52,738 nt of DNA from Desulfuromonadales bacterium (GTDB lineage Bacteria > Desulfobacterota > Desulfuromonadia > Desulfuromonadales > JAAXQG01). The notes under the pieces are model-generated. The model saw nothing but the letters and a program-made list of their open reading frames with translations, did no database searches and was not told where the DNA came from. This document shows positions 9,014-43,178 of the stretch, piece by piece. The position numbers and the translations under genes are program-made. Within the stretch, counting starts at the first letter, position 1; each line of letters opens with the position of its first letter. The stretch is taken from positions 1-52,738 of the forward strand of contig JAAXQG010000313.1 in assembly GCA_012974445.1 (NCBI GenBank). Direction: 5' to 3'.

Positions 9014-9724
9014 TCAAATATCTATCTCCTGAAGCAGGATTGAATCTTCAACCTTGCGCCCCTCTTTGCGCGCGAGGCTCTGAATCAACAGCTTCCCCCC
9101 GATGGCTGCCGTGCGCTTAACCAGATAGTCGGCATTATCCCCATCATGCTTGCGGAAGGCCTCGATAAGCTTTTTATGCTCTTCCACCGAGATATGCATG
9201 CGCCCCTCGATAGAAAGCGATGTCAGACGAGAGCGGGTAAATTTACGAACCAGCTGATTGATGAGTTCGTGCAGCTTCTCGTTCCCCGCCGCCTTGATGA
9301 ACAGATCGTGAAACTCATTGTGAACCTTGAAGAAGGTCTTGACGTCTCCCGAAACGGCGAACTGCTCGAGGCGCTCGTTGATCCCCTCGAGGCGTTCAAT
9401 ATCCTTCTCGGTCAGGTTTTCAGCCGCCATACGGGCCGCATAACCTTCCAGAACACTCTTGATGGCATAGAACTCCTCGACTTCGCGTTCGGAGAGCTCG
9501 GCCACCACTGCCCCCTTTCGGGGAATGACCGTCAGATAACCTTCGGATTCAAGTTGCCGGAAAGCTTCTCGAATCGGGGTTCGGCTGATACCGAAACGCT
9601 CGGCCAGTTCGGGCTCGGCAACCTTTTCACCCGGCTTGAGTGCACCGCTGAGAATCGCTTCACGGATTGTCTCCAGTATTTTTTCTCTGAGGGTCTGATG
9701 TCTTTCGATGGGCCTGGACTTCAC
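9014..9724 (-). CDS. GntR-family regulator with FCD ligand domain
   Basis: The 236-residue product has an N-terminal winged helix-turn-helix (about residues 12-75: REKILETIREAILSG, AERFGISRTPIREAFRQLESEG) and an all-helical C-terminal FCD domain (about 85-220) of the FadR subfamily, with EFHDLF and EEHKKLIEA carrying likely metal or ligand residues. Such proteins respond to organic acids or similar metabolites. It starts with GTG at 9724 behind a good GGGAGGT site. It is divergent from the potassium channel gene, and the imperfect palindrome at 9764-9778 between them is a probable self-operator. A matching palindrome precedes the ATP synthase operon (18840-18852), which suggests a wider role. 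The effector is unknown. Confidence 0.93.
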   Translation of the reverse strand: MKSRPIERHQTLREKILETIREAILSGALKPGEKVAEPELAERFGISRTPIREAFRQLESEGYLTVIPRKGAVVAELSEREVEEFYAIKSVLEGYAARMAAENLTEKDIERLEGINERLEQFAVSGDVKTFFKVHNEFHDLFIKAAGNEKLHELINQLVRKFTRSRLTSLSIEGRMHISVEEHKKLIEAFRKHDGDNADYLVKRTAAIGGKLLIQSLARKEGRKVEDSILLQEIDI

Positions 9725-9763: not shown

Positions 9764-9778
9764 TGTATGCAGTATACA
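9764..9778. promoter_or_regulatory. Probable GntR-family operator (gntR / channel intergenic)
   Basis: TGTATGC-A-GTATACA is a 15-base pseudo-palindrome with one mismatched pair. It lies 40 bases before the gntR start and overlaps a possible gntR -35 box (TTGTAT, 17 bases from TGTAAT on the minus strand). GTATAC-type half sites are common among GntR/FCD regulators. The same motif recurs at 18840-18852. Confidence 0.6.
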
Positions 9779-18839: not shown

Positions 18840-18852
18840 GTATACTGTATAC
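18840..18852. promoter_or_regulatory. Probable GntR-type operator upstream of the atp operon
   Basis: GTATAC-T-GTATAC is a perfect 13-base palindrome around a single central base, flanked by CG/AA. Its sequence matches the palindrome between gntR and the channel gene at all but one base of the core. It lies 44 bases before the atpX start, where it could block RNA polymerase. I see no convincing -35 box, so the exact promoter is not assigned. Confidence 0.6.
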
Positions 18853-21715: not shown

Positions 21716-23571
21716 TTCCTGCCCAGCAAAACAGAAAGTACAGATATGGCTGCCGGTGTCACACCCGGCACTCGAGAGGCTTGCCCCAGAGTGGATGGAC
21801 GAACCTTGTCCAGTTTTTCCCTTACCTCTGCAGACAATCCTCTCAAATCCTCATACGTAAAAGAATCAGGAATTTTCATGGTCTCCAGGCCCTTGAACCG
21901 TGCAACCTGTTCAATCTGTCGCTGAATGTACCCCTGGTATTTGATTTCAATTTCCAACTGCTCCATAACTGCTGAAGTAAATTCTTTATCCAGACCGGAA
22001 TACTCCGCCAACTCCGCAACGGAAATCTCAGGCCTCTTCATCAGATCGACAAGGGAAATTCCATTTTTCAGACCAAACAAACCAAAACGTTCGATCCAAC
22101 CCTGACTGGACGAAGTGATTCTAAATTCCTCCACCCTTTTCTGCGCAGCGCTGATCTGCTCTCGTTTCTGCTCAAAAGCATCCCACCTGCCATCATCCAC
22201 AAGGCCCACCGACCGGCCAACAGGGGTCAGTCGTAAATCGGCATTATCCTCCCGTAGCAGCAAACGATATTCCGCCCTGGAAGTAAACATCCTGTAGGGC
22301 TCTGAAGTGCCCAGGGTAACCAGGTCATCAATCAGCACACCGATATAGCCCTGATCGCGCCTCAATACCAGAGGCTCCCCTCCCCTGCATTTCTGAACGG
22401 CATTGATTCCGGCCATCAACCCTTGAGCCGCAGCCTCCTCATAGCCAGAAGTTCCATTGATCTGACCGGCCAGAAAGACTCCTTCTACAGACTTCATCTC
22501 CAAAGATGATTTCAACTGTCGGGGCTCTATATAGTCATATTCGATAGCGTAACCAGGACGGATAATTTCCACATTTTCCAGCCCGACGATAGAGCGCAAA
22601 AAACGAACCTGAACATCAGGGGGTAATGAGGTAGATACCCCGTTGGGATAAACCTCGGTTGTCGTCAACCCTTCAGGTTCCAGAAATATCTGATGTTGAT
22701 CTTTCTCGGGAAAACGTACAATTTTATCCTCGATTGAAGGGCAATAACGGGGGCCCACCCCCTCAATAACCCCACTATAAAGTGGCGACCGGGACAAACC
22801 CTCACGAATAATTCGATGAGTGTTCTCGTTGGTATAGGTAATATGACAGGATATCTGCGGCAACTTGATGCCGCCGGAAACAAAAGAGAAAGGCTTAGGA
22901 TCCACATCTCCCTGCTGCTGCTCAAGCCGGGTAAAATCAATGGAGCGGCTATCGAGTCGGGCCGGGGTTCCGGTTTTGAGCCGACCAACCTCAACTCCTA
23001 ACGCTCTCAACTGCTCCGAAATCCCGAAAGAAGCAGGCTCTCCCGAGCGCCCGCCTTCATAATTATTGAGACCGACATGAATCAGCCCCCCCATAAAGGT
23101 GCCGGTTGTCAGGATTACCGATCTGGAAGAAAACACATACCCTTCTCTGGTTTCCAAACCCTTAACGACCCCGGAATCGATAATCAGCCGACTGACAACC
23201 AACTGCTTGAGATGGAGGTTATCCTGATTCTGTATCACCCTCAACATCCGACGGCGATACAAATCGCGATCAGCCTGCGCCCTGGACGCACGCACCGCCG
23301 GGCCCTTCTTGGTATTAAGAATGCGAAACTGAATGCCGGTCTCATCAATATTGAGACCCATCTCCCCACCCAGCGCATCAATTTCCTTGACCAGATGCCC
23401 CTTGGCCAAACCACCGATGGCAGGATTGCAAGACATAAGTCCGACATTATCTACATTCAAAGTCAATAGAAGGGTTTTACAACCCATGCGCGCCGCAGCA
23501 AGAGAAGCCTCACACCCGGCATGGCCACCCCCTACAACGATGACATCATAATAAAATTCAGCCATTTCCAT
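21712..23571 (-). CDS. mnmG: tRNA uridine-5-carboxymethylaminomethyl enzyme MnmG (GidA)
   Basis: This FAD protein works with MnmE to place the cmnm5 group on wobble uridine of certain tRNAs. It shows the dinucleotide motif DVIVVGGGHAGCEAS, SCNPAIGGLAKGHLVKEIDALGG, the FAD-domain KTGTPARLD, and GYEEAAAQGLMAGINA. Four in-frame ATG codons crowd the start (23589, 23583, 23571, 23565); I choose 23571 because GGAG sits 6 bases before it, giving 619 residues. The earliest one abuts the parS site. The product length is normal for the family. Confidence 0.96.
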   Translation of the reverse strand: MEMAEFYYDVIVVGGGHAGCEASLAAARMGCKTLLLTLNVDNVGLMSCNPAIGGLAKGHLVKEIDALGGEMGLNIDETGIQFRILNTKKGPAVRASRAQADRDLYRRRMLRVIQNQDNLHLKQLVVSRLIIDSGVVKGLETREGYVFSSRSVILTTGTFMGGLIHVGLNNYEGGRSGEPASFGISEQLRALGVEVGRLKTGTPARLDSRSIDFTRLEQQQGDVDPKPFSFVSGGIKLPQISCHITYTNENTHRIIREGLSRSPLYSGVIEGVGPRYCPSIEDKIVRFPEKDQHQIFLEPEGLTTTEVYPNGVSTSLPPDVQVRFLRSIVGLENVEIIRPGYAIEYDYIEPRQLKSSLEMKSVEGVFLAGQINGTSGYEEAAAQGLMAGINAVQKCRGGEPLVLRRDQGYIGVLIDDLVTLGTSEPYRMFTSRAEYRLLLREDNADLRLTPVGRSVGLVDDGRWDAFEQKREQISAAQKRVEEFRITSSSQGWIERFGLFGLKNGISLVDLMKRPEISVAELAEYSGLDKEFTSAVMEQLEIEIKYQGYIQRQIEQVARFKGLETMKIPDSFTYEDLRGLSAEVREKLDKVRPSTLGQASRVPGVTPAAISVLSVLLGRK

Positions 23572-23588
23572 CGCCAACTCCATAAACA

Positions 23589-23604
23589 TGTTTCACGTGA
23601 AACA
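23589..23604. other. parS centromere site
   Basis: TGTTTCACGTGAAACA is a perfect 16-base palindrome identical to the widely conserved parS consensus. It lies in the 36-base gap between mnmG and mnmE, about 4 kb from the origin, and ParB and ParA are encoded just downstream. It is the only full match I found in the window. Confidence 0.95.
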
Positions 23605-23607
23605 CTG

Positions 23608-24969
23608 CTATTTACCTATACAGAACTTCGAGAAAATACGGTCAAGTATGTCGTCAGGCGTTGTTTCTCCGGTAATCTCACCAATAGAACTAAGAGCATC
23701 ACCAAGGTGAGTGGCAAGAAATTCCTCGGACTGGCCAATGGAATCCAGAAAAAGTTTGAGGTGCTGACTGCACTGGTTGAGAAGCTCAAAGTGCCTGTAC
23801 TCGGAAATAAAACCTGCCGATTCCATATCCAGAATTTCATCTGATTCAAAAAACCCACAGATACGGGATTTAAGTATATCCATACCCTCCCCCGTGTGGG
23901 TTGAAACTGAAACTGGAGTACTTTCCACAAAAGGCAATTCAGGAAAAGAATCAAAGAGGTCTGATTTATTTACAACAACCAGAGAAGGAATATCGGCAAT
24001 ATACTTAAAAATAGCCAAATCCTCGTCATCGATAGGACGACTTCCATCACAGAGAAAAAGAACGAGGTCTACAGAGGAAATTTTATTTTGTGATTTTTCA
24101 ACTCCGACCTTTTCAACGGGATCATCTGTTTGTCGAATACCGGCAGAATCAATTATATTGATACTGAGACCGTTTATCTGAATTTTTTCCTCAATAAGGT
24201 CCCGCGTTGTTCCTGGAACGTCGGTAACGATTGCCCTGTCGCTGGACAACAGAAAATTTAAGAGGGAACTCTTTCCGACGTTGGGTTTGCCAAGCACAAG
24301 AACGGATATACCCTCCTTGTAGATACGGCCGGAGCGGTAAGTATCCACGAGGGAGTCAATAAGGGCTAAAGCTGAATCAATAGAAGATCTGAAGGTATTT
24401 ATATGGGAAATATCGATATCTTCGTCCGGGAAGTCAATATAGGCTTCAACGAGAGATAAAATTGAAAGGATATGCTCCTTAATTGAGGAAAACCTCTCAG
24501 ACAAATATCCATCAAGTTGCTTTACTGCGGTACGCCTACCAAGTTCGGATTTTGAATTTATCAGATCAACAATTGCCTCCGCTTGAGGCAAATCGATACG
24601 ACCATTAAGAAAAGCTCTTTTTGTAAATTCACCGGCTTCTGCGGATCTGAAACCAAGAGTGGAAAACTCTGCAAGAATTTTTGATACTACAAATCGATTG
24701 GAATGACAATGTATCTCAACGACGTCATCAGCAGTATAAGAACGAGGTCCTTGCATATAAACAGCAAGGACCTCATCAATAACTTCACCATCGGAACCGG
24801 TTATATTACCCCGGTAAAAAAAATGAGATTTAAAACATGTCTTGTTATGCAAGGAACTGAAGAGTTCGTTTAATACCCGAAGTGAATCAGGCCCGGAAAC
24901 TCTTATAATGGTTATACCACCCTCTCCAGGCACAGTCACTGGAGCATATATAGTATCTTTAATAGACAA
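23608..24969 (-). CDS. mnmE: tRNA modification GTPase MnmE (TrmE)
   Basis: The 453-residue product has the N-terminal tetrahydrofolate-binding domain (DTIYAPVTVPGEGGITIIRVSG), a helical domain, an inserted Ras-like G domain (GKPNVGKSSLLN, DVPGTTRD, DSAGIRQTDDPVE, VVNKSDL), and the C-terminal FCIGK with the conserved cysteine. It partners MnmG. The start codon is TTG at 24969 with no clear ribosome binding site, so translation may depend on coupling with yidC, which ends 14 bases upstream. The codon usage is more AT-rich than in mnmG. No jag gene separates it from yidC. Confidence 0.95.
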   Translation of the reverse strand: MSIKDTIYAPVTVPGEGGITIIRVSGPDSLRVLNELFSSLHNKTCFKSHFFYRGNITGSDGEVIDEVLAVYMQGPRSYTADDVVEIHCHSNRFVVSKILAEFSTLGFRSAEAGEFTKRAFLNGRIDLPQAEAIVDLINSKSELGRRTAVKQLDGYLSERFSSIKEHILSILSLVEAYIDFPDEDIDISHINTFRSSIDSALALIDSLVDTYRSGRIYKEGISVLVLGKPNVGKSSLLNFLLSSDRAIVTDVPGTTRDLIEEKIQINGLSINIIDSAGIRQTDDPVEKVGVEKSQNKISSVDLVLFLCDGSRPIDDEDLAIFKYIADIPSLVVVNKSDLFDSFPELPFVESTPVSVSTHTGEGMDILKSRICGFFESDEILDMESAGFISEYRHFELLNQCSQHLKLFLDSIGQSEEFLATHLGDALSSIGEITGETTPDDILDRIFSKFCIGK

Positions 24970-24983
24970 AACTAGACCATTTA

Positions 24984-26540
24984 TCAGATAGTTAGAGGCG
25001 TTTTCTTTTTATTGACGAGATACTGCTGAAGTATAGTTAGAAGATTATTTACAAGCCAGTAGAGAACAAGTCCTGACGGAAAATTCAAAAACATAAAAGT
25101 AAAAACAACAGGCATAGCCATCATAACTTTAGCCTGTACTGGATCCAGGGTCGTAGGTGACATTTTCATCTGGAAAAACATCGTAATGCCCATAATAACT
25201 GGAGTTATATAATACGGGTCTTTCAAGGAAAGGTCATTTATATAGAATATAAAGGGTGCATGCCTGAGTTCTATAGCAACATAAAGTACTTTATAAAGAG
25301 CAAAAAATACTGGTATTTGAACCAGCATAGGCAAGCAACCACCTAAAGGATTAACTCTATTTGTTTTATAGAGTTGCATTATTTCTTTATTCAGTTTTTC
25401 CTTATCTGTTTTATATTTTTCTCTTATTTTCTGCATCTGAGGTTGAAGAACCTGCATTGCCTTCATTGAAGAGTAGCTCTTGTTTGTCAATGGCCAAAAG
25501 ATAAGCTTTATAAGGACAGTAACCAGTATAATAGATAAACCATAATTACCTACAACTGAATAAATCATTTTAAGAGCGTAGAGTACAGGAACAGCCAGTA
25601 CAGCAAAAAATCCAAAATCTATATTTTTTTCGAAGTCTCCAGTTACAGACTTAAGGATGTCTATATCTTTAGGACCAAAAAACAAAATATTATTCAATGA
25701 AATGTTGCTATTAGCATTTAAATTAAAATTCTGACTTCCTGCTATAAAATCAATATTATTACCTTTTGAACTTAATTTTATAGATTCAAAAGGAAACTCT
25801 GGAATAAGACCAGATACAAAATATTTTGTTTGATAGGAAATCCAATTAACAGAGTCAGATAGGATTTGTTGCTCTTCAATTACGTCTTCAATTTTCACAT
25901 TTTCAATTTTTTCATTTTTAAAATAAGAAGGGCCAACAAAAAATAAACTCTGATCCTTCATTTCCTCTGTAAAAGGCGCTCTAATTGAAGATAATAATCT
26001 AGATGTTATTGTGTTTGAACTTTTATTCTCAATATTTATAACTGTGTCAATTTTATATGATGAAGGATCTATTTTGAAAATATAAGAAACTAAAATACCA
26101 TCTGATTCAGATTTATATATAACTTCGGTAATTTTTCCATCTGAAATATAAACATCTGATTCGGTATTTACTTCAAATTTATCAAACTCAACATTTTCTA
26201 GAGTTGGAGTAAATGCATAATTATTCGGGTCCGAGATTAAAACGATCTTATCGCCGTTTTCATCAGTATAGTTATTTAAAATAACCTCTTGTATGGAAGG
26301 GGTATTTTTTGAAAATTTCACATTTAATAGATCGGTAGAAACTTTAAAAAAGGAGTCTTTTATAGGTTCGGATGAGTGAACTTGATTGTCAGAAAAAGCA
26401 TTTTCAGTGGAAGTTACTTTTACAGTGTCTGATAATGATTTTTCACTTTTAAGATCTTCTGCCGGCGGGAAAAGAATATTATAACCAGACCAGATAGAAA
26501 TCATTAATAATAAGGCAATTATTATTCTTTTATTTTCCAT
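24984..26540 (-). CDS. yidC: Membrane protein insertase YidC
   Basis: The 518-residue inner-membrane insertase has the Gram-negative layout: an N-terminal membrane helix ([20 protein letters not shown]), a large periplasmic domain rich in Asn, Ser and Lys, and a C-terminal five-helix core ([71 protein letters not shown]). I start at ATG 26540, behind GTGGAGTC; the frame could extend to a GTG at 26552. It overlaps the yidD end by 11 bases. The gene is very AT-rich compared with the window flanks. Confidence 0.95.
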
Positions 26541-26772
26541 TATTGACTCCACTAATTTCTACGGGGACTGGATCATATCCACCAGGATGAAATGGATGAC
26601 ATTTAGATATCCTTGATATGGATAATCTCATAGCTTTGAATACGTTGAATGTTTGAAAAGCGAGAAGTGAGTATGAAGAACAAGTAGGATAAAATCTACA
26701 GCATGGGGGTTTAATTGGGGAAATAAAAATTTTATAAAACTTTATGATATATATAATAAATATATTAAACAT
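26530..26772 (-). CDS. yidD: Membrane protein insertion efficiency factor YidD
   Basis: The 80-residue protein carries the whole family signature: an N-terminal hydrophobic helix ([17 protein letters not shown]), [15 protein letters not shown], and [14 protein letters not shown]. It is a small inner-membrane-associated helper of YidC and Sec insertion. Its start overlaps the rnpA end by 8 bases and its stop overlaps yidC by 11 bases, so the three genes are tightly coupled. Confidence 0.95.
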
Positions 26773-27139
26773 AAAGTATTTTCTCCACCATTTTGAGATT
26801 TTCAGTAAGTGTATTTTGTTTCTTTGTGTATGAATTTTTTACTATTATAGAAATGTCTAAATTTAAATTTTTAGAAGTAATATTCAATCTGAACCATTCA
26901 CGAATGACTCTTCTAATATAATTTCTATAGGGTGAGTTACCGACTTTTTTTGTAACAGTAATACCCAATCTGGAATATTCAAGTTCATTTTCCAGGAAGT
27001 AAAAAATTAAAAAAGGGGTGACTTTTTTCTTACCTGAATGTTTCAGAGTAAGAAAATCACCCCTTTTTTTTATTCTTTGTTGCTGTGAAAATTTTGAGTT
27101 TATATCAATACCAATTTTATTTGGATGGAGTACAAACAC
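26765..27139 (-). CDS. rnpA: Ribonuclease P protein component
   Basis: The protein subunit of RNase P, which trims tRNA 5' ends. The conserved core starts at [17 protein letters not shown] and includes [28 protein letters not shown], the RNR-type motif that contacts RNase P RNA. No ATG lies just before the core. I take the GTG at 27139, giving 124 residues (normal length) and a 23-base overlap with the end of rpmH. The same frame stays open through rpmH up to an ATG at 27220, which would give 151 residues, so the start is unsure. A terminator-like hairpin (27009-27070) lies inside the coding region. Confidence 0.88.
27009..27070 (-). promoter_or_regulatory. Terminator-like long hairpin inside rnpA
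   Basis: Read on either strand, six A residues and GGGGTGA (27009-27021) pair with TCACCCC and a T-run (27057-27069). TTTTCTTAC (27025-27033) pairs with GTAAGAAAA (27048-27056), and CTGAA pairs with TTCAG around a TGT loop. About 27 base pairs form, with only a 3-base and a 1-base bulge. The flanking A and T runs make it terminator-like on both strands. On the minus strand it lies about 70-130 bases into rnpA, so it could attenuate transcription after rpmH. Confidence 0.65.
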
Positions 27140-27269
27140 TGAGTCTTTTTCTACCTTTAGCTCTTTTGCGGGCAATGATGTTACGACCACTGCTGGTTTG
27201 CATGAGGTTGCGAAATCCATGCTTTCTACGGCGTTTAATGTTGCTGGGCTGATATGTTCTTTTAGACAT
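27117..27269 (-). CDS. rpmH: 50S ribosomal protein L34
   Basis: This small basic protein of the large ribosomal subunit has 50 residues, starting [20 protein letters not shown] and continuing with [25 protein letters not shown], the L34 hallmark. A short C-terminal addition (CTPSK) makes it a few residues longer than the usual 44-46. The ATG at 27269 follows GGAGTT. It is transcribed from the promoter at 27308-27336 and is the first gene of the rpmH-rnpA-yidD-yidC-mnmE-mnmG series on the left of the origin. The 3' end overlaps rnpA. Confidence 0.96.
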
Positions 27270-27307
27270 GTTTAACTCCTGGTCTGGCTAGAAATCGGAA
27301 AAACAAA

Positions 27308-27336
27308 CTGATAACGAATAATCAAGCTTCTGTCAA
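27308..27336 (-). promoter_or_regulatory. Sigma-70-type promoter of rpmH
   Basis: On the minus strand TTGACA (27336-27331) and TATCAG (27313-27308) are exactly 17 bases apart. Predicted start lies about 30 bases before the rpmH ATG, consistent with a strong ribosomal-protein promoter. Confidence 0.75.
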
Positions 27337-27430
27337 TAAAAAAAATACGGCCATGTTGAACTTATACCCTTTTGTCCAGCGCACTATCTTTTAGTTTTTA
27401 AAAGTCTTTTATAGCAGTAGTAGTAGGGCC

Positions 27431-27759
27431 TGTGTATAAGTTAGAAACCATAAAAAGTATTAAAAATTATGAGGTTATAGCGTATTTGTCCTGTTGGCGC
27501 CCAAACCACTTTTAGGGGTCATTTGTGGATGAATCCGTTATGCACAGTATCCCCCGGTGATATCCACAGAAAAATGGGGAGAAGAAATAAACATTAAGAT
27601 ATTTTGAATTCACATGTTGACAAAATATTTGTAAATACCGTGGATATTTGCTAGCTTGAATCCACGTTGAACTGTAAATTTCTTCTTTTATTTCAATTAG
27701 TTGTTTAGTTGCAGATTGTGATAATTTTCTGTGTATAATTATGTTGATTGTGTGGATAA
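27431..27759. other. Chromosomal replication origin oriC
   Basis: The AT-rich, gene-free stretch between rpmH and dnaA (27270-27783) holds clustered DnaA boxes. Exact TTATNCACA matches occur at 27431-27439 (minus), 27538-27546 (plus), 27730-27738 (minus) and 27751-27759 (minus, the strong TTATCCACA form). One-mismatch boxes lie at 27524-27532 and 27560-27568. A T-rich block at 27671-27710 is a candidate unwinding element. Genes diverge from this point. Position next to dnaA and the boxes make the call strong; exact borders are approximate. Confidence 0.9.
27709..27739 (+). promoter_or_regulatory. Probable dnaA promoter overlapped by a DnaA box
   Basis: A perfect TATAAT at 27734-27739 is preceded by a poor -35 (TTGCAG, 27709-27714, spacing 19). 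The -10 overlaps the DnaA box at 27730-27738, and the consensus box at 27751-27759 lies just downstream. This arrangement fits self-repression by DnaA, which is known in other bacteria; here it is inference. Confidence 0.5.
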
Positions 27760-27783
27760 GTGATCTAGGGATATATATAAACA

Positions 27784-29130
27784 ATGTCAGATAATAAACT
27801 CTGGATACTGACGCTTGAAAATCTTGAAAAAAAAATAAGTCCTCAACATTTCAATACATGGATAAAGCCCATCAAGTATGAGGCAATCAATAAAGATGTT
27901 GTCCATCTGCAGGTACCGAACAAGTTTGTCCTCGATTGGATTAAAAATAATTATATAGAAACTATAAAAAATACACTTTCAGATATAAGTGCAATTGATT
28001 ATCAAGTGGATATAAGTATAGGTTCAGTTGATACTGAGCCACAAAACACAAATAAAATAGAACAGATTAAAAGCGATAATCTTTTAGTAAAATCAAAAAA
28101 AATTGAGTCTACATACAATTTAAATCCAAAATATACCTTTGATGAATTTGTTCAGGGATCTTCAAATCAATTTTGCTTTGCAGCTGCAAAGGCTGTAGCG
28201 GAAAATCCTGCCACAACCTATAATCCGCTATTTATATATGGTGGGGTTGGTCTTGGAAAAACTCATATAATACATGCTATTGGTAATGAGATAATAAAGA
28301 AAAACAGCTCTATGCGTGTTTGTTATTATGCATCTGAAAAATTCATGAATGAACTTATAAATTCAATTCGTTATGGGAAAATGGATGAATTTAGAAATAA
28401 ATTCAGATCAATGGATGTTTTAATTATAGATGACGTTCAATTTATTGCCGGCAAAGAGCGTACCCAGGAAGAGTTTTTTCACACTTTTAATGCACTTTAT
28501 GAATCTCACAAGCAAATCATAGTTACTTCTGATAAATTCCCGAAGGAAATTCCAGGGCTTGAAGAAAGACTAAGATCAAGATTTGAGTGGGGCCTCATTG
28601 CTGATATTCAACCACCTGATGTTGAAACTAAGCAGGCAATTTTGAATATGAAGGCTGAACAAAATTGTATTGAACTGCCGGAGGAGGTTTGCCTCTATTT
28701 GGCTGTTTCCGTGAGTCATAATGTGAGGGAACTTGAAGGTTATCTTATAAGACTTGGAGCTTATGCAAGTCTTACCTCTACAAAAATAACATTAAGTATG
28801 GCAAAAGAAGTTTTAAAAAATCTTATCCCAGATAGAAATAGAGATATAAATGTTGAGGAAATACAAAAAATTGTATGTAATCATTTTTCTATAAAGCTAT
28901 CAGAAATAAAATCAAGAAAAAGAAGTAAAAACTTGGTTTTACCAAGGCAAATTGCAATGTATTTGTCACGAAGTTTAACAGATCTTTCGTTACCTGTAAT
29001 AGGTGAAAAGTTTGGTGGTAAGGATCATTCAACAATTATCCATGCTATTAAAAAAATAGAAAAACTTATTGAAGAAGATAAAAATATAAAAGATTCGGTT
29101 GAAAATTTGAGGGAATTGATAGTTCAATAA
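27784..29130 (+). CDS. dnaA: Replication initiator DnaA
   Basis: The 448-residue AAA+ protein binds DnaA boxes and melts oriC. It shows the N-terminal domain I (LWILTLENLEKKISPQHFNTWIKP), a short variable linker, Walker A YGGVGLGKTH near residue 157, Walker B VLIIDDVQFIAGKE, sensor regions, and the C-terminal DNA-binding signature FGGKDHSTIIHAI. Its length is normal. The gene is strongly AT-rich and lysine/isoleucine-rich compared with gyrA and mfd in the same window. It is followed by dnaN after 12 bases. Confidence 0.98.
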   Translation: MSDNKLWILTLENLEKKISPQHFNTWIKPIKYEAINKDVVHLQVPNKFVLDWIKNNYIETIKNTLSDISAIDYQVDISIGSVDTEPQNTNKIEQIKSDNLLVKSKKIESTYNLNPKYTFDEFVQGSSNQFCFAAAKAVAENPATTYNPLFIYGGVGLGKTHIIHAIGNEIIKKNSSMRVCYYASEKFMNELINSIRYGKMDEFRNKFRSMDVLIIDDVQFIAGKERTQEEFFHTFNALYESHKQIIVTSDKFPKEIPGLEERLRSRFEWGLIADIQPPDVETKQAILNMKAEQNCIELPEEVCLYLAVSVSHNVRELEGYLIRLGAYASLTSTKITLSMAKEVLKNLIPDRNRDINVEEIQKIVCNHFSIKLSEIKSRKRSKNLVLPRQIAMYLSRSLTDLSLPVIGEKFGGKDHSTIIHAIKKIEKLIEEDKNIKDSVENLRELIVQ

Positions 29131-29142
29131 TAAGGGGTTATT

Positions 29143-30258
29143 ATGAGATTTATTGTCGAAAAAGAAATACTTCTTAAGTCTCTTTCCAGGGTTCAAAGTG
29201 TTGTTGAAAAGCGAAACACTATCCCTATTCTTTCTAATATTTTAATTTCCGCAAATGGTGACTCAGTATATCTCACAGCTACAGATCTTGAAGTTGCATC
29301 AAAGATCCATTTTAATTCAGAAGTTCAAGCTGATGGAGATATCACTGTAAATGCCAAGAAATTTTTTGAAATTATTAAAGAGTTGCCGGAAGGTGAAATT
29401 TCAATAATATCAAAAGATAACTGTTGGATAGAAATAAGAAGTGGGAAGTCAGTTTTCAATATAGTTGGACTTTCTTCGGATGAATTTCCTTTTTTTCCTG
29501 ATTTTAAACAGGCTTCATTCTTTTCTATTTCTGGGTCAACTCTTAAAAAACTTATAGATAAGACGATACTTTCTACATCAAATGATGAGTCAAAATATAA
29601 TCTAAACGGAATATATGTAAAGCTTGTCAGCGAAGAAGATAAGGAATATTTGAGATTCGTAGCTACTGATGGCCATAGACTTTCTTTGGCAAATTCACTG
29701 CTGAGTGAATCGGTGGAAGGTGCTCTTTCTTCGGGCGTTATTTTGCCTAAAAAAGGCCTTTTAGAACTGAAAAAAATAAGTGAAGAGAACGAAACTATCA
29801 GCTTAGGTTTTTTTGATAATAATGCTGTTGTAAGGACAGAGTCATCAACTCTTGTTATGCGCTTGATTGATGGTGATTTTCCTGATTATGAGCGTGTCAT
29901 TCCAAAATGCGTAGAGCAGTCTATGGTTGTTTCAAAAAATCTTTTTGTTCATGCACTCAAGAGAATTTCCATACTTTCCAGCGATGGTTCTAGAGGGGTG
30001 AAAATACATCTTTCTCCAGACAGTATGGAAATATCTTCTTCTAATCCCGAGTATGGTGAAGCCAAGGAGCAGGTCGATATTAAATATGATGGAGATGAGG
30101 TTTCTGTAGGTTTCAACGCTCGTTTTCTTATCGATATTTTGAACGTTATTGACTCGGATCAGGTTTCACTTGCCATCAAGGATCAACTCTCTCCTGGAGT
30201 TTTGACTCCTCATAATGATACGGATTTTCTTGCCGTGGTCATGCCGATGAGGCTTTAA
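29143..30258 (+). CDS. dnaN: DNA polymerase III beta sliding clamp
   Basis: The 371-residue product forms the ring that tethers DNA polymerase III. It begins MRFIVEKEILLKSLSRVQSVVEKRNTIPILSNILI and ends in the conserved DFLAVVMPMRL. Three clamp domains are apparent from the repeated strand patterns (KRISILSSDGSRGVKI, FNARFLIDILNVI). An AGGGG site precedes the ATG. Like dnaA it is AT-rich. recF follows after 9 bases. Confidence 0.98.
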   Translation: MRFIVEKEILLKSLSRVQSVVEKRNTIPILSNILISANGDSVYLTATDLEVASKIHFNSEVQADGDITVNAKKFFEIIKELPEGEISIISKDNCWIEIRSGKSVFNIVGLSSDEFPFFPDFKQASFFSISGSTLKKLIDKTILSTSNDESKYNLNGIYVKLVSEEDKEYLRFVATDGHRLSLANSLLSESVEGALSSGVILPKKGLLELKKISEENETISLGFFDNNAVVRTESSTLVMRLIDGDFPDYERVIPKCVEQSMVVSKNLFVHALKRISILSSDGSRGVKIHLSPDSMEISSSNPEYGEAKEQVDIKYDGDEVSVGFNARFLIDILNVIDSDQVSLAIKDQLSPGVLTPHNDTDFLAVVMPMRL

Positions 30259-30267
30259 TTCTTCGCA

Positions 30268-33760
<3,493 letters not shown>

Positions 33761-33803: not shown

Positions 33804-36314
33804 ATGCAACAGCCCGAACAGAACAAAATAAGCGTCAATATCGAAGAGGAAATGCGCAAGTCCTACATGGACTATGCCATGAGTGTTATCGTCGGCCGGG
33901 CACTGCCTGACGTGCGCGACGGTCTCAAGCCGGTGCATCGCCGGGTACTTTTCGCCATGCACGATCTTGGCAATGAATACAATAAGCCCTACAAGAAGTC
34001 GGCGCGCGTGGTCGGCGACGTCATCGGTAAGTATCATCCCCATGGTGATACGGCGGTGTATGACACCATCGTACGAATGGCGCAGGATTTCTCCATGCGC
34101 TACACCCTGGTTGACGGGCAGGGGAACTTCGGTTCCGTCGACGGAGATTCGGCAGCGGCCATGCGTTACACCGAGATCCGCATGGACAAGTTGTCTCATG
34201 AGCTTCTGGCCGACATCGAGAAGGAAACCGTCGATTACGGCACCAACTACGACGATTCGCTTCGTGAGCCTCTGGTTCTGCCCTGTAAATACCCGAACCT
34301 GCTGGTCAACGGCTCCGAAGGCATTGCCGTCGGCATGGCGACCAAGATCCCCCCCCACAACCTGGGGGAGGTTATCGATGCACTGATCACCGTCATCGAC
34401 AATCCCCGTACCGACTTCGAGGAGCTGATCAGCATCATTCCCGGCCCCGATTTTCCCACCGCAGGCTTTATTTTCGGCCGCGAGGGTATTCGGGAGGCCT
34501 ACAGAACAGGACGTGGAATTGTCCACATGCGTGCCCGGGCGATGGTGGAGAAGGACAAGCGCACCGGACGCGAAAGCATCATCATCAACGAAATCCCTTA
34601 CCAGGTGAACAAGGCCAGACTCATCGAGAAGATCGCCGATCTGGTCAAGGAAAAGAAGCTCGAAGGCATCAGCGACCTGCGCGATGAATCGGATCGCGAC
34701 GGGATGCGCATCGTCATCGAGCTCAAAAGAGATACGGTCCCTGGCATCCTGATCAACCAGCTCTACAAGATGACCGCCATGCAGAGTTCCTTCGGAATTA
34801 TCATGCTGGCCATCGTCGGGGGGCAGCCCCGGGTGCTGACCCTGCGTGAAGTGCTGGACCTGTTCATCGATCACCGCAAGGAGATCGTTGTCCGCCGCTG
34901 CATTTTCGAACTCAAGAAGGCCGAAGCCCGGGCCCATCTGCTCGAAGGTTTCAAGATTGCCCTGGATAATCTCGATGAGGTCATCCAGATCATCAAGACC
35001 TCGGGCAGTCCCGCTGAAGCTAAGGAGCGGCTGATGGCACGTTTCAGCTTCTCCGAGAAGCAGGCCCAGGCCATTCTGGAACTGCGATTGCACCGCCTCA
35101 CCGGGATGGAGCAGGAGAAAATTCTCGAGGAATACCGCGAGATCATGGCCCTTATTTCCCGTCTGAAGGAAATTCTGGCCAGCGAGGTGGAAATACTCAA
35201 TATCATCAAGACCGAGCTTCTGGATATTCGTGCACGCTTTGCCGACGCGCGTCGCACGGAGATCGTGGACAGGACCGGAGATCTCACCATCGAGGATCTC
35301 ATCGTCGAAGAAGACATGGTGGTGACCGTCTCCCACAGCGGTTACATCAAGCGTAACGCCGTCTCCCTTTACCGGGCACAGCGCCGCGGCGGCAAGGGCA
35401 AGACGGGAATGAAGCCCAAGGAAGAGGATTTTGTCGAGAAGCTCTTTATCGCCTCGACCCACTCCTACATTCTGGTTTTCACGGACCTGGGCAAGGTGTA
35501 CTGGCTCAAGGTTCACGAGATTCCTCAAGGGGGACGTGCTTCCCGGGGCAAGGCCATTGTTAACCTGCTTCAGATCTCGTCCGAAGAGAATGTTACGACC
35601 ATATTGCCGGTGAAGAGCTTCGAAGAGGGGCGCTACATTGTCATGGCGACCCGTTACGGAGTCATCAAGAAGACTGAACTCAAGGCCTATTCCAACCCCA
35701 GGGCCGGCGGAATCATCGCCCTGAATGTCGACGAGGGGGACCGTTTGATTTCCACTCGTCTCACGGATGGGGAAATGGATATTCTTCTGGCGACCCGGGA
35801 CGGAAAGTCCATCCGCTTCCCTGAGAGTGCGGCTCGCTCCATGGGACGGGTTTCCCGTGGTGTCCGGGGCATGTCCCTAGAAGGCGACGACTGCGTTATC
35901 GGCATGGAAGTGGTCACCGAAGCCCTTTCAGCAACCCTGGTGACCGTGACGGAAAATGGTTACGGCAAGCGTACCGATCTGAGTGAATACAGACTCCAGA
36001 ATCGGGGGGGCAAGGGGATTATCACCATCAAGACCTCCGATCGTAACGGCAAAGTTGTGGATATCAAGCTGGTTACCGACGAGGACGACCTGATGTTTAT
36101 CACCGACCGGGGCAAGGTCCTGCGTACTTCGGTGGCTCCCCTCTCTGTGATCGGACGAAACACTCAAGGGGTGCGTCTGATGGTGCTTGAGAGCAGCGAG
36201 CGCATTGTTGCCGTGGTGAAGCTGGCCGAGAAGGATGAGGATGAAGATGAGCTCTCAGCTGAGGAAGCTGAAGAAGCGTCTGCTGAGGGATCCGACGAGG
36301 AGTCGCAAGACTAA
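33804..36314 (+). CDS. gyrA: DNA gyrase subunit A
   Basis: The 836-residue cleavage subunit shows the N-terminal [24 protein letters not shown], the quinolone-region [22 protein letters not shown], and the catalytic Tyr122 in AAMRYTEIR. The GyrA box QRRGGKG that permits DNA wrapping is present in [13 protein letters not shown], so this is gyrase rather than topoisomerase IV. The C-terminal beta-pinwheel ends in a strongly acidic tail ([16 protein letters not shown]). The sequence coding this tail overlaps the next gene out of frame by about 80 bases. Confidence 0.98.
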
Positions 36315-37104
36315 GATACGGGTCTTTACCGCCGCTCTGCTGGTGGCCGGTTGCCTGAGCTTCACCCTGACGGGGACCTTCGATAACTATCTGGAGAGTC
36401 GCCAGTGGAAGCGGGTGGAGCGGCTGATTCTGAAGGGGGAGTATGAGGGCGCTCACAGCGCTCTGAATGCCCCCTGGATTCAGCGCCCCCACCGGGTGTC
36501 AGCTTTCTTTCGCAGGGGGCAGCTCGAAGAGCTCTATCTCGGTCGCCCGCAAGAGGCTCTGATCTCCTATCTGAGCTTGATCCGGGACTATCCAGGGGAC
36601 AGGCAGGCGCAGGAGGCCAGGAGACGCATTGTCGCCATTTATCTTGAGCGCCTTTACGACCTCGATCAGGCAGCGCTTCATCTGGAACTGCTTATCGCAC
36701 AGGAGCCCGCAGATGCTGAGCTGCTGCGTGAGCAACTGGCAGACATTTATTTTCGCCAGGACGACTACGATCGCTCCAGAGCTCAATACGCATTACTGGC
36801 CCGGGATACCTCAGACGAGCAGCGTAATCGCCGTAGCCGGCTCAGGTGGGCCGCGACGCTTCATCTTATGGAGCACTATGATCAGTCCGTCGCAATTTAT
36901 CTGGAGCTGTTGAACGAGGATCCGGCAACCCCGGTTGCTCTCGAAGCGGTCCTTGGCCTGTCCAGGATCGCCGAGGATCTGAACCTGCTTCGACAGGCTG
37001 CTGAATATCTTGAGCTTTACAAGGGAGATGACTCTTCTGGGCGCATCAGGGCACGGGGAGAGTTGCTGGACCGGTTAATCAATCAAAAGGGGGAGGCTCT
37101 CTGA
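36235..37104 (+). CDS. TPR-repeat protein with N-terminal membrane anchor
   Basis: The product of up to 289 residues has a basic N-terminus, one hydrophobic helix ([18 protein letters not shown]), then helical repeats with TPR spacing ([77 protein letters not shown]). It is probably a membrane-anchored TPR protein facing the periplasm. I do not recognise a specific function. Three start codons (36235, 36241, 36247) all lie inside the gyrA tail, each with a plausible purine-rich site, so the overlap with gyrA is 68-80 bases. The terminator at 37087-37123 covers its 3' end. Confidence 0.8.
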
Positions 37105-37141: not shown

Positions 37142-37177
37142 AGTTATCAACAGGTATGCGGTATATTGTTGATAACT
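37142..37177. repeat. Inverted repeat upstream of gpsA
   Basis: Arms AGTTATCAACA (37142-37152) and TGTTGATAACT (37167-37177) match perfectly over 11 bases around a 14-base centre. Each arm holds TTATCAACA, one base from a DnaA box. The centre contains GTATGC-G-GTATAT, resembling the GntR-type palindromes at 9764 and 18840. It ends 21 bases before the gpsA start and so may regulate it. Confidence 0.6.
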
Positions 37178-37198: not shown

Positions 37199-38203
37199 AT
37201 GAGAAAAATCGCAGTATTGGGTGCTGGTAGCTGGGGAACTAGTCTCGCTGGTCTGTTAGCGGATAAAGGGTATGAGGTGAGTCTGTGGGCCCGCAACCCC
37301 GAGCTCTGTGAGCAGATTCGGACCCATCATGAAAACCTGACCTATCTTCCCGGCTTTACCCTGTCAACCAATCTGACAGCTACCAGCGACCTTGAGCTGG
37401 CCTGTAAGGACAGGGAGGTGGTTCTGCTTGTTCCACCGTCTCAGGCTTTGCGTCATATTCTCGAAGGTGCCAGAGCTCATATAAGTAAGAATGCCCTAGT
37501 GATTTCGGCTTCAAAGGGGATCGAAAATGGTACTTTGCTTCCAATGTCTGAGGTTCTGCAGCAGGCCCTGCCCCATATGGACCCTAGGCAGTTCTGCTAT
37601 CTCTCGGGCCCCTCATTCGCCCGGGAGGTTTCTGCGGGGATGCCCACGGCTGTCGTAGCAGCTTCAACGAGCAATCAGGTGGCTCAGCAGGTTCAGGATC
37701 TGTTCAGTACCGAAGCTTTTCGCGTCTATACCAGTGACGATGTCATGGGGGTAGAGCTGGGCGGTGCGCTCAAGAATGTCATTGCTTTGGCGGCCGGGGT
37801 CTGCGAGGGGCTGGGGTTCGGTTCCAACAGCCAGGCAGCCCTGATCACGCGGGGGCTTGCGGAAATTACCCGCCTGGGCTGTGCCATGGGTGCGCAGGCC
37901 ACAACTTTTGCGGGGCTCGCCGGGATGGGGGATCTGGTTTTAACCTGTACCGGAAGCCTCTCCCGAAACCGCAGCGTCGGAATCGAGCTGGGCCGCGGGC
38001 GGAGCCTGGAGTCTATACTCGGCGAAATGCAGATGGTGGCCGAGGGGGTCAAGACCTCCCTTTCTGCCTACCAGCTCGCACAGAAGCAGGCTGTGGATGT
38101 GCCGATCATCAATCAGATTTACCGTATTCTTTATGAAAAAAAGGATCCGCGTCAGGCCGTTATCGATCTGATGCAGAGAGAACTCAAGGCCGAAGGGGCC
38201 TGA
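37199..38203 (+). CDS. gpsA: Glycerol-3-phosphate dehydrogenase [NAD(P)+]
   Basis: The 334-residue cytosolic enzyme reduces dihydroxyacetone phosphate to sn-glycerol-3-phosphate for phospholipid synthesis. It shows the Rossmann motif KIAVLGAGSWGTSLA, the substrate-site SASKGIENGTLLPMSEVL, YLSGPSFAREV, the catalytic lysine in GVELGGALKNVIALAAG, and GLAGMGDLVLTC. The ATG at 37199 is preceded by AGGATAGGTAAAC. The inverted repeat at 37142-37177 lies in its leader or promoter. Confidence 0.97.
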   Translation: MRKIAVLGAGSWGTSLAGLLADKGYEVSLWARNPELCEQIRTHHENLTYLPGFTLSTNLTATSDLELACKDREVVLLVPPSQALRHILEGARAHISKNALVISASKGIENGTLLPMSEVLQQALPHMDPRQFCYLSGPSFAREVSAGMPTAVVAASTSNQVAQQVQDLFSTEAFRVYTSDDVMGVELGGALKNVIALAAGVCEGLGFGSNSQAALITRGLAEITRLGCAMGAQATTFAGLAGMGDLVLTCTGSLSRNRSVGIELGRGRSLESILGEMQMVAEGVKTSLSAYQLAQKQAVDVPIINQIYRILYEKKDPRQAVIDLMQRELKAEGA

Positions 38204-43108: not shown

Positions 43109-43133
43109 TACCTGCTCAATCAGAAACATCAGA

Positions 43134-43178
43134 CAGCAAACGACTCTCTCCTGGCGGAGCAGGGTCGTTTGCTGTTTC
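43134..43178 (+). terminator. Intrinsic terminator after the cytochrome gene
   Basis: CAGCAAACGAC (43134-43144) pairs perfectly with GTCGTTTGCTG (43164-43174), with a smaller inner CTCC/GGAG hairpin, and is followed by TTT. The T-run is short, so efficiency may be moderate. Confidence 0.7.

Follow-up and report, generated by a model that had tools for sequence, protein, structure and literature searches.

What role does a perfect inverted repeat with DnaA-like arms play directly upstream of gpsA in a Desulfuromonadales bacterium? An earlier note on the stretch of DNA analysed here (the window, 52,738 nucleotides) had described two perfect 11-base arms ending 21 bases from gpsA. Direct reading of positions 37142-37177 verified both statements: the arms AGTTATCAACA (37142-37152) and TGTTGATAACT (37167-37177) flank the spacer GGTATGCGGTATAT, and the repeat ends 21 bp before the gpsA ATG at 37199. 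The description of the arms as one base from a DnaA box is also right, the altered base being position 6, the invariant C of the E. coli consensus. The features under consideration are collected in Table 1; protein families were scanned for 56 of the 146 window open reading frames of at least 80 aa.

Table 1. Positions of the repeat before gpsA, its parts, and the genes and sites compared with it (window coordinates).
Feature	Position	Strand	Basis or remark
GntR/FCD-family regulator	9014..9724	-	PF00392 and PF07729 above cut-off
GntR-type operator GTATGCAGTATAC, in front of the regulator gene	9765..9777	.	Perfect copies at the equal place in relatives
GntR-type operator GTATACTGTATAC, in front of the ATP-synthase b-subunit genes	18840..18852	.	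Copies at the equal place in relatives
Own dnaA-promoter boxes, tandem TGTGTATAA-TTA-TGTTGATTG-TGTGGATAA	27730..27759	-	Three boxes
dnaA	27784..29130	+	TIGR00362, E 1.4e-176
TPR-repeat gene upstream of gpsA	36235..37104	+	Pfam TPR matches below cut-off
Terminator-like hairpin AAAAGGGGG...CCCCCTTTT with a T6 tail; overlaps the TPR stop codon	37085..37123	+	Repeat with 9-bp arms
Perfect inverted repeat AGTTATCAACA-N14-TGTTGATAACT	37142..37177	.	Read directly; one copy in own genome
DnaA-type box I, TTATCAACA	37144..37152	+	Box and relative position recur in the phylum's dnaA promoters
Spacer GTATGCGGTATAT	37154..37166	.	2 of 12 bases off the GntR/FCD operator GTATACNGTATAC; occupies the place of the middle box of the dnaA element
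DnaA-type box III, TTATCAACA	37167..37175	-	23 bp start to start from box I, the spacing of the dnaA-promoter element
gpsA, NAD(P)H-dependent glycerol-3-phosphate dehydrogenase	37199..38203	+	NCBIfam NF000941 and NF000942 above cut-off

The repeat stands out from its surroundings. Six perfect repeats with arms of at least 11 bases and loops of 3-30 are present in the window; 100 block-shuffled windows contained 0.54 on average and never more than 4. A perfect repeat with 12-bp arms and a 19-bp loop is located where the pyruvate kinase reading frame begins (43133-43175). The 9-mer TTATCAACA occurs three times in the window, at 31510 and in both arms, where 0.27 occurrences are expected. When the 9-base arms with N14 were searched in the source genome (85.5% complete), allowing up to 3 mismatches in 18, a single match was found, and this single copy lends no support to a repeat-element reading. 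An intrinsic terminator at the repeat was rejected as neither arm is followed by a T-run.

Within the origin cluster the gene order is dnaA-dnaN-recF-gyrB-gyrA-TPR-gpsA, and the interval in front of gpsA is unusual. The upstream gene ends 94 bp before gpsA, while this distance does not exceed 43 bp in 28 of the 29 relatives compared and is 86 bp in the remaining one; the TPR gene usually runs almost into gpsA in relatives, whereas here the terminator-like hairpin parts the two. This hairpin is absent from the output of the terminator scan, which accepts loops of 3-8 only. The region before gpsA contains no good sigma-70 promoter: one scan listed none, and the best candidate in another agrees at 8 of 12 positions. 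To place the repeat among relatives, 57 were searched and 56 gave a match, of which 29 gpsA upstreams, all from outside the family and genus of the source, were compared. The box pair was found upstream of gpsA in none of these 29. Single boxes near gpsA in two of the relatives (L013 and L024) were discarded, both being unpaired and inside the upstream gene. The gpsA position of the box pair is private to the source genome among those compared. The check on conservation in relatives' gpsA promoters proposed in the earlier note hence gave a divided answer: the position is not kept at gpsA, yet the arrangement of the arms is kept elsewhere, at dnaA.

Assignment of the arms to DnaA was initially doubted because arm position 6 is not C. 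Both the E. coli consensus TTWTNCACA and the wider HHMTHCWVH require C at this position, according to passages of PMC12371093; with A there, the arms are not E. coli-type boxes. A scan of the phylum reversed this doubt. The pattern TTATCAACA-N14-TGTTGATAA, with at most one mismatch, matched in 13 of 395 phylum genomes, with no match for the reversed control. The 12 matches outside the source genome all fall where dnaA begins (each gene exceeding the TIGR00362 cut-off), three of them in the same class. Both arms are exact in two of the 12, and nine carry a further box (at most one mismatch) within the spacer. In one genus, box III reads TTATCAACA in L161 and L163 and TTATCCACA in L162. TTATCAACA is hence used as an outer box at dnaA. 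Its use is rarer within the order: among 29 dnaA elements, an arm with TCAACA occurs once in each of three and two TTATCAACA arms occur in none; single TTATCAACA arms are found at L220 (G062) and L230 (G110). The DnaA signature GGKDHSTIIHA of the source genome is common to 13 of 18 aligned relatives (L213 and L214 were left out, being too short in the stretches used). Outside the phylum, TTATCAACA is given as a box in the predicted origin of the Cyanothece linear chromosome in a passage of PMC4674748. Taken together, the use in the phylum and the Cyanothece listing support TTATCAACA as a putative DnaA box in the host lineage.

The geometry of the pair was then compared across the order. The strict pattern WTATCMACA-N14-TGTKGATAW is present in 36 of 136 order genomes, including the source genome, at one place in each, and the reversed control gave none. 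All 35 matches in other genomes are located upstream of dnaA, about 49-112 bp before the gene, with start codons estimated by alignment; in L233 and L234 contig ends cut the locus, so that the distances are off, but dnaA is adjacent in both. This placement was established for 29 loci by one comparison and for six (G025, G034, G001, G031, G013 and G040) by further stretches. At gpsA, box I starts at -55, within the range seen at dnaA. Of 20 dnaA promoters examined in the order, 11 have two outer boxes at the 23-bp distance, neither with more than one mismatch, while in seven the best 23-bp pair carries at least four mismatches in all. The dnaA element is common but not universal in the order, the strict pattern occurring in 35 of the 135 other genomes. 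In the window and the stretches of about 12 kb from 20 relatives, every convergent N14 pair except the gpsA one lies at dnaA. Two order genomes have exact TTATCAACA pairs with a different spacer (6-30 were allowed) away from dnaA: G048 with a spacer of 7 and G003 with one of 25.

The full element upstream of dnaA (L196-L213 and L215-L243) contains three boxes in a DARS-like orientation, with start distances of 11 and 23 compared with 14 and 26 in the E. coli triple boxes upstream of uvrB and mutH, which were taken as DARS1 and DARS2. The gpsA copy shares with it the convergent outer boxes I and III, their spacing of 23 bp start to start and a comparable distance to the start codon. It differs in lying before gpsA, in having TTATCAACA in both arms, in a lower matrix score and in the absence of the middle box: the best fit in the gpsA spacer has 5 mismatches in 9 and a core score of -8.8, while the dnaA elements have at most two mismatches in 27 of 29 cases and six in the other two. 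The matrix of all 29 dnaA elements gives the gpsA copy 16.3, with 31.9 for the lowest real element, and the outer boxes alone give 25.0, with 27.5 for the lowest real one; the next best score in the window on the dnaA-element matrix is 0.3. In addition, E. coli DnaA favours boxes 2-3 bp apart, and one inserted base pair reduces binding (passages of PMC11317965). Given the missing middle box, the low matrix scores and the different spacing preference in E. coli, the gpsA copy is, by sequence comparison, a reduced element and not a full member.

The dnaA promoter of the source genome itself carries tandem boxes with no opposing box I, the best pair showing 5 mismatches; box I may have been lost there. 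The surrounding DNA forms a deep, roughly symmetric GC trough (window about 23000-31000, 0.29-0.36 per kb compared with 0.56 near gyrA). In relatives, the GC content of dnaA is below 0.40 in 10 of 20 stretches, and gyrA regions have 0.44-0.65.

We consider that the repeat is probably a DnaA-responsive operator for gpsA, re-used from the dnaA-promoter element, in this one genome. DnaA would bind the convergent pair before gpsA, and such binding would most likely lower gpsA transcription when DnaA is abundant. We infer both the promoter position and the sign of this effect, the latter from the fact that the pair takes up much of the room available to a promoter between the end of the T-run (37123) and the ATG (37199). 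Phospholipid synthesis would then receive glycerol 3-phosphate in step with the level of free DnaA over the cell cycle. DnaA likewise represses its own promoter in E. coli, as described in passages of a review of DnaA as a transcription factor (PMC8203912), in which gpsA, lipid and phospholipid receive no mention. No link between DnaA and gpsA was found among the title matches listed or the open-licence passages compared. The DnaA-regulated E. coli promoters named in passages of PMC11317965 are dnaA, nrdA, mioC and uvrB; gpsA is not among the named targets, and glpD, once claimed, was unbound in ChIP-seq. These promoters resemble the gpsA locus in having DnaA boxes in the promoter, and differ in spacing, the gpsA boxes being 14 bp apart rather than 2-3. 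Like gpsA, glpD concerns glycerol 3-phosphate.

The boxes might instead bind DnaA in order to titrate it or to control replication close to the origin, leaving gpsA unaffected. The site lies 9.4 kb from the start of dnaA, and passages of PMC12371093 describe E. coli DnaA boxes as clustered near the origin, with titration proposed there. The full dnaA element moreover displays the order of the E. coli DARS cores: these follow an orientation rule in which box I is opposed to II and III (passages of PMC5742627), and the dnaA element of the order shares this opposition as well as the 3-bp spacer between II and III. The gpsA copy is less easily accommodated. It has no middle box, so that the box opposing box I in DARS is missing, and it consists of two boxes at 23 bp rather than three with start distances of 14 and 26. 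Furthermore, it sits in the promoter gap, 21 bp before a start codon, while the cumulative GC skew minimum is elsewhere, near 24-26 kb of the window. A titration site with no effect on gpsA thus appears unlikely.

Less likely again is a joint operator, in which the spacer between the DnaA boxes would itself be an operator of the GntR/FCD regulator. That regulator and its site are well anchored in relatives. A close homologue (71-77% identity) is present in 11 of 19 relatives' stretches, with a perfect GTATACNGTATAC beside the gene in all 11; upstream of the ATP-synthase b-subunit gene, GTATACNGTATAC is found in 10 of the 14 stretches that contain this gene and is absent from there in four. The near-invariant operator GTATACWGTATAC is thus located at the conserved regulator's own gene as well as upstream of the ATP-synthase b-subunit gene, and no earlier description of the string was found by title among the open-licence literature matches listed.

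The statement that the core resembles the GntR-type sites of the window is literally true, with 2 of 12 bases changed. Allowing two mismatches, GTATACNGTATAC occurs in the window at 9765, 18840 and 37154 only, where 0.28 occurrences are expected, and the other two are real operators; only 47 of 400,000 random cores come equally close. However, 37154 is the weakest of the three. Its weight-matrix score of 1.6 (rank 6 of 52,719 in the window) compares with 23.0-29.6 at 21 relatives' sites and with 23.1 and 26.7 at 9765 and 18840. The 21 operators behind the matrix were hand-picked beside gntR or atp genes with zero mismatches, and two further sites beside the L254 operator, with one and two mismatches, were left out. 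Each half of the gpsA core carries one altered base and the A/T centre is replaced by G. Nor is the core GTATGCGGTATAT itself enriched in the window, with 7 matches at up to three mismatches against 5.8 expected. The resemblance is odd enough to test, but by the standard of the relatives' sites the core is not an operator. Hence, of the joint control point suggested in the earlier note, the comparative geometry argues for the DnaA half, while the GntR half is weak. A composite switch, in which DnaA on the outer boxes would compete at gpsA with a spacer-bound GntR/FCD regulator, the one of the ATP-synthase operon, is unlikely; were it to operate, replication state and energy state would jointly set the supply of phospholipid precursor.

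The simpler option raised in the earlier note, an RNA hairpin in the gpsA leader or in a read-through transcript, holds for the repeat in isolation and fades in its context. The isolated 47-nt fold reaches -13.5 kcal/mol (z -4.46), and none of 200 shuffles was as good; in 116 nt of context the z value is an ordinary -0.40. There was no window match in Rfam at the gathering threshold. The two arms of the dnaA elements match each other in 18 of 29 cases in the order and in two of 12 in the phylum, and differ in 11 of 29 and 10 of 12, respectively. Arms that differ fit protein-binding boxes better than a stem, and we regard the hairpin as improbable.

An operator for the biotin repressor BirA was the first alternative to be considered, on account of the N14 spacing. 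Passages of PMC545781 give the BirA operator as TTGTAAACC-N14/15-GGTTTACAA, known from delta-proteobacteria, and the repeat, sharing the N14 inverted architecture, is the best BirA-like N14 site in the window. The source genome also encodes a BirA protein whose N-terminus carries a repressor domain (TIGR00121 exceeds its cut-off, and TIGR00122 reaches 60.6 bits where 70 is required). Its canonical operators are located at bioB and bioW, and these retain G3 and C9. Both positions are nearly fixed in real half-sites (43 and 40 of 44, respectively), and both are altered in both gpsA arms, which do not read as the half-site TGTYAACC. A matrix built from 22 bioB operators (three of 25 bioB upstreams, having no 13/18 site, were left out) gives the gpsA repeat 12.2, compared with 25.2-33.2 for 21 of the 22 real sites and 13.4 for the remaining one. 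The alternative was put aside on this basis as very improbable. In L112, the BirA operator upstream of bioB lies inside a longer inverted repeat with outer arms of 19 bp, whose transcript would fold into a strong hairpin.

A chance repeat could account for its presence in one genome and its absence at gpsA in the relatives compared, but is hardly credible given that, when the 94-bp gap was shuffled 20,000 times, any such repeat arose in only 18 cases, and that the strict pattern finds no pair away from dnaA in the other 135 genomes.

A DnaA-responsive operator at gpsA would bear on the long-standing question of how membrane synthesis is coordinated with replication initiation. Passages of PMC3645759 describe an action of acidic phospholipids on DnaA and also note a proposal that DnaA regulates fatty-acid genes. 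With only two boxes, the gpsA site offers a small target for testing, for which the dnaA-promoter element of relatives provides a reference. If true, a DnaA operator at gpsA would constitute a return path from DnaA to the phospholipid supply.
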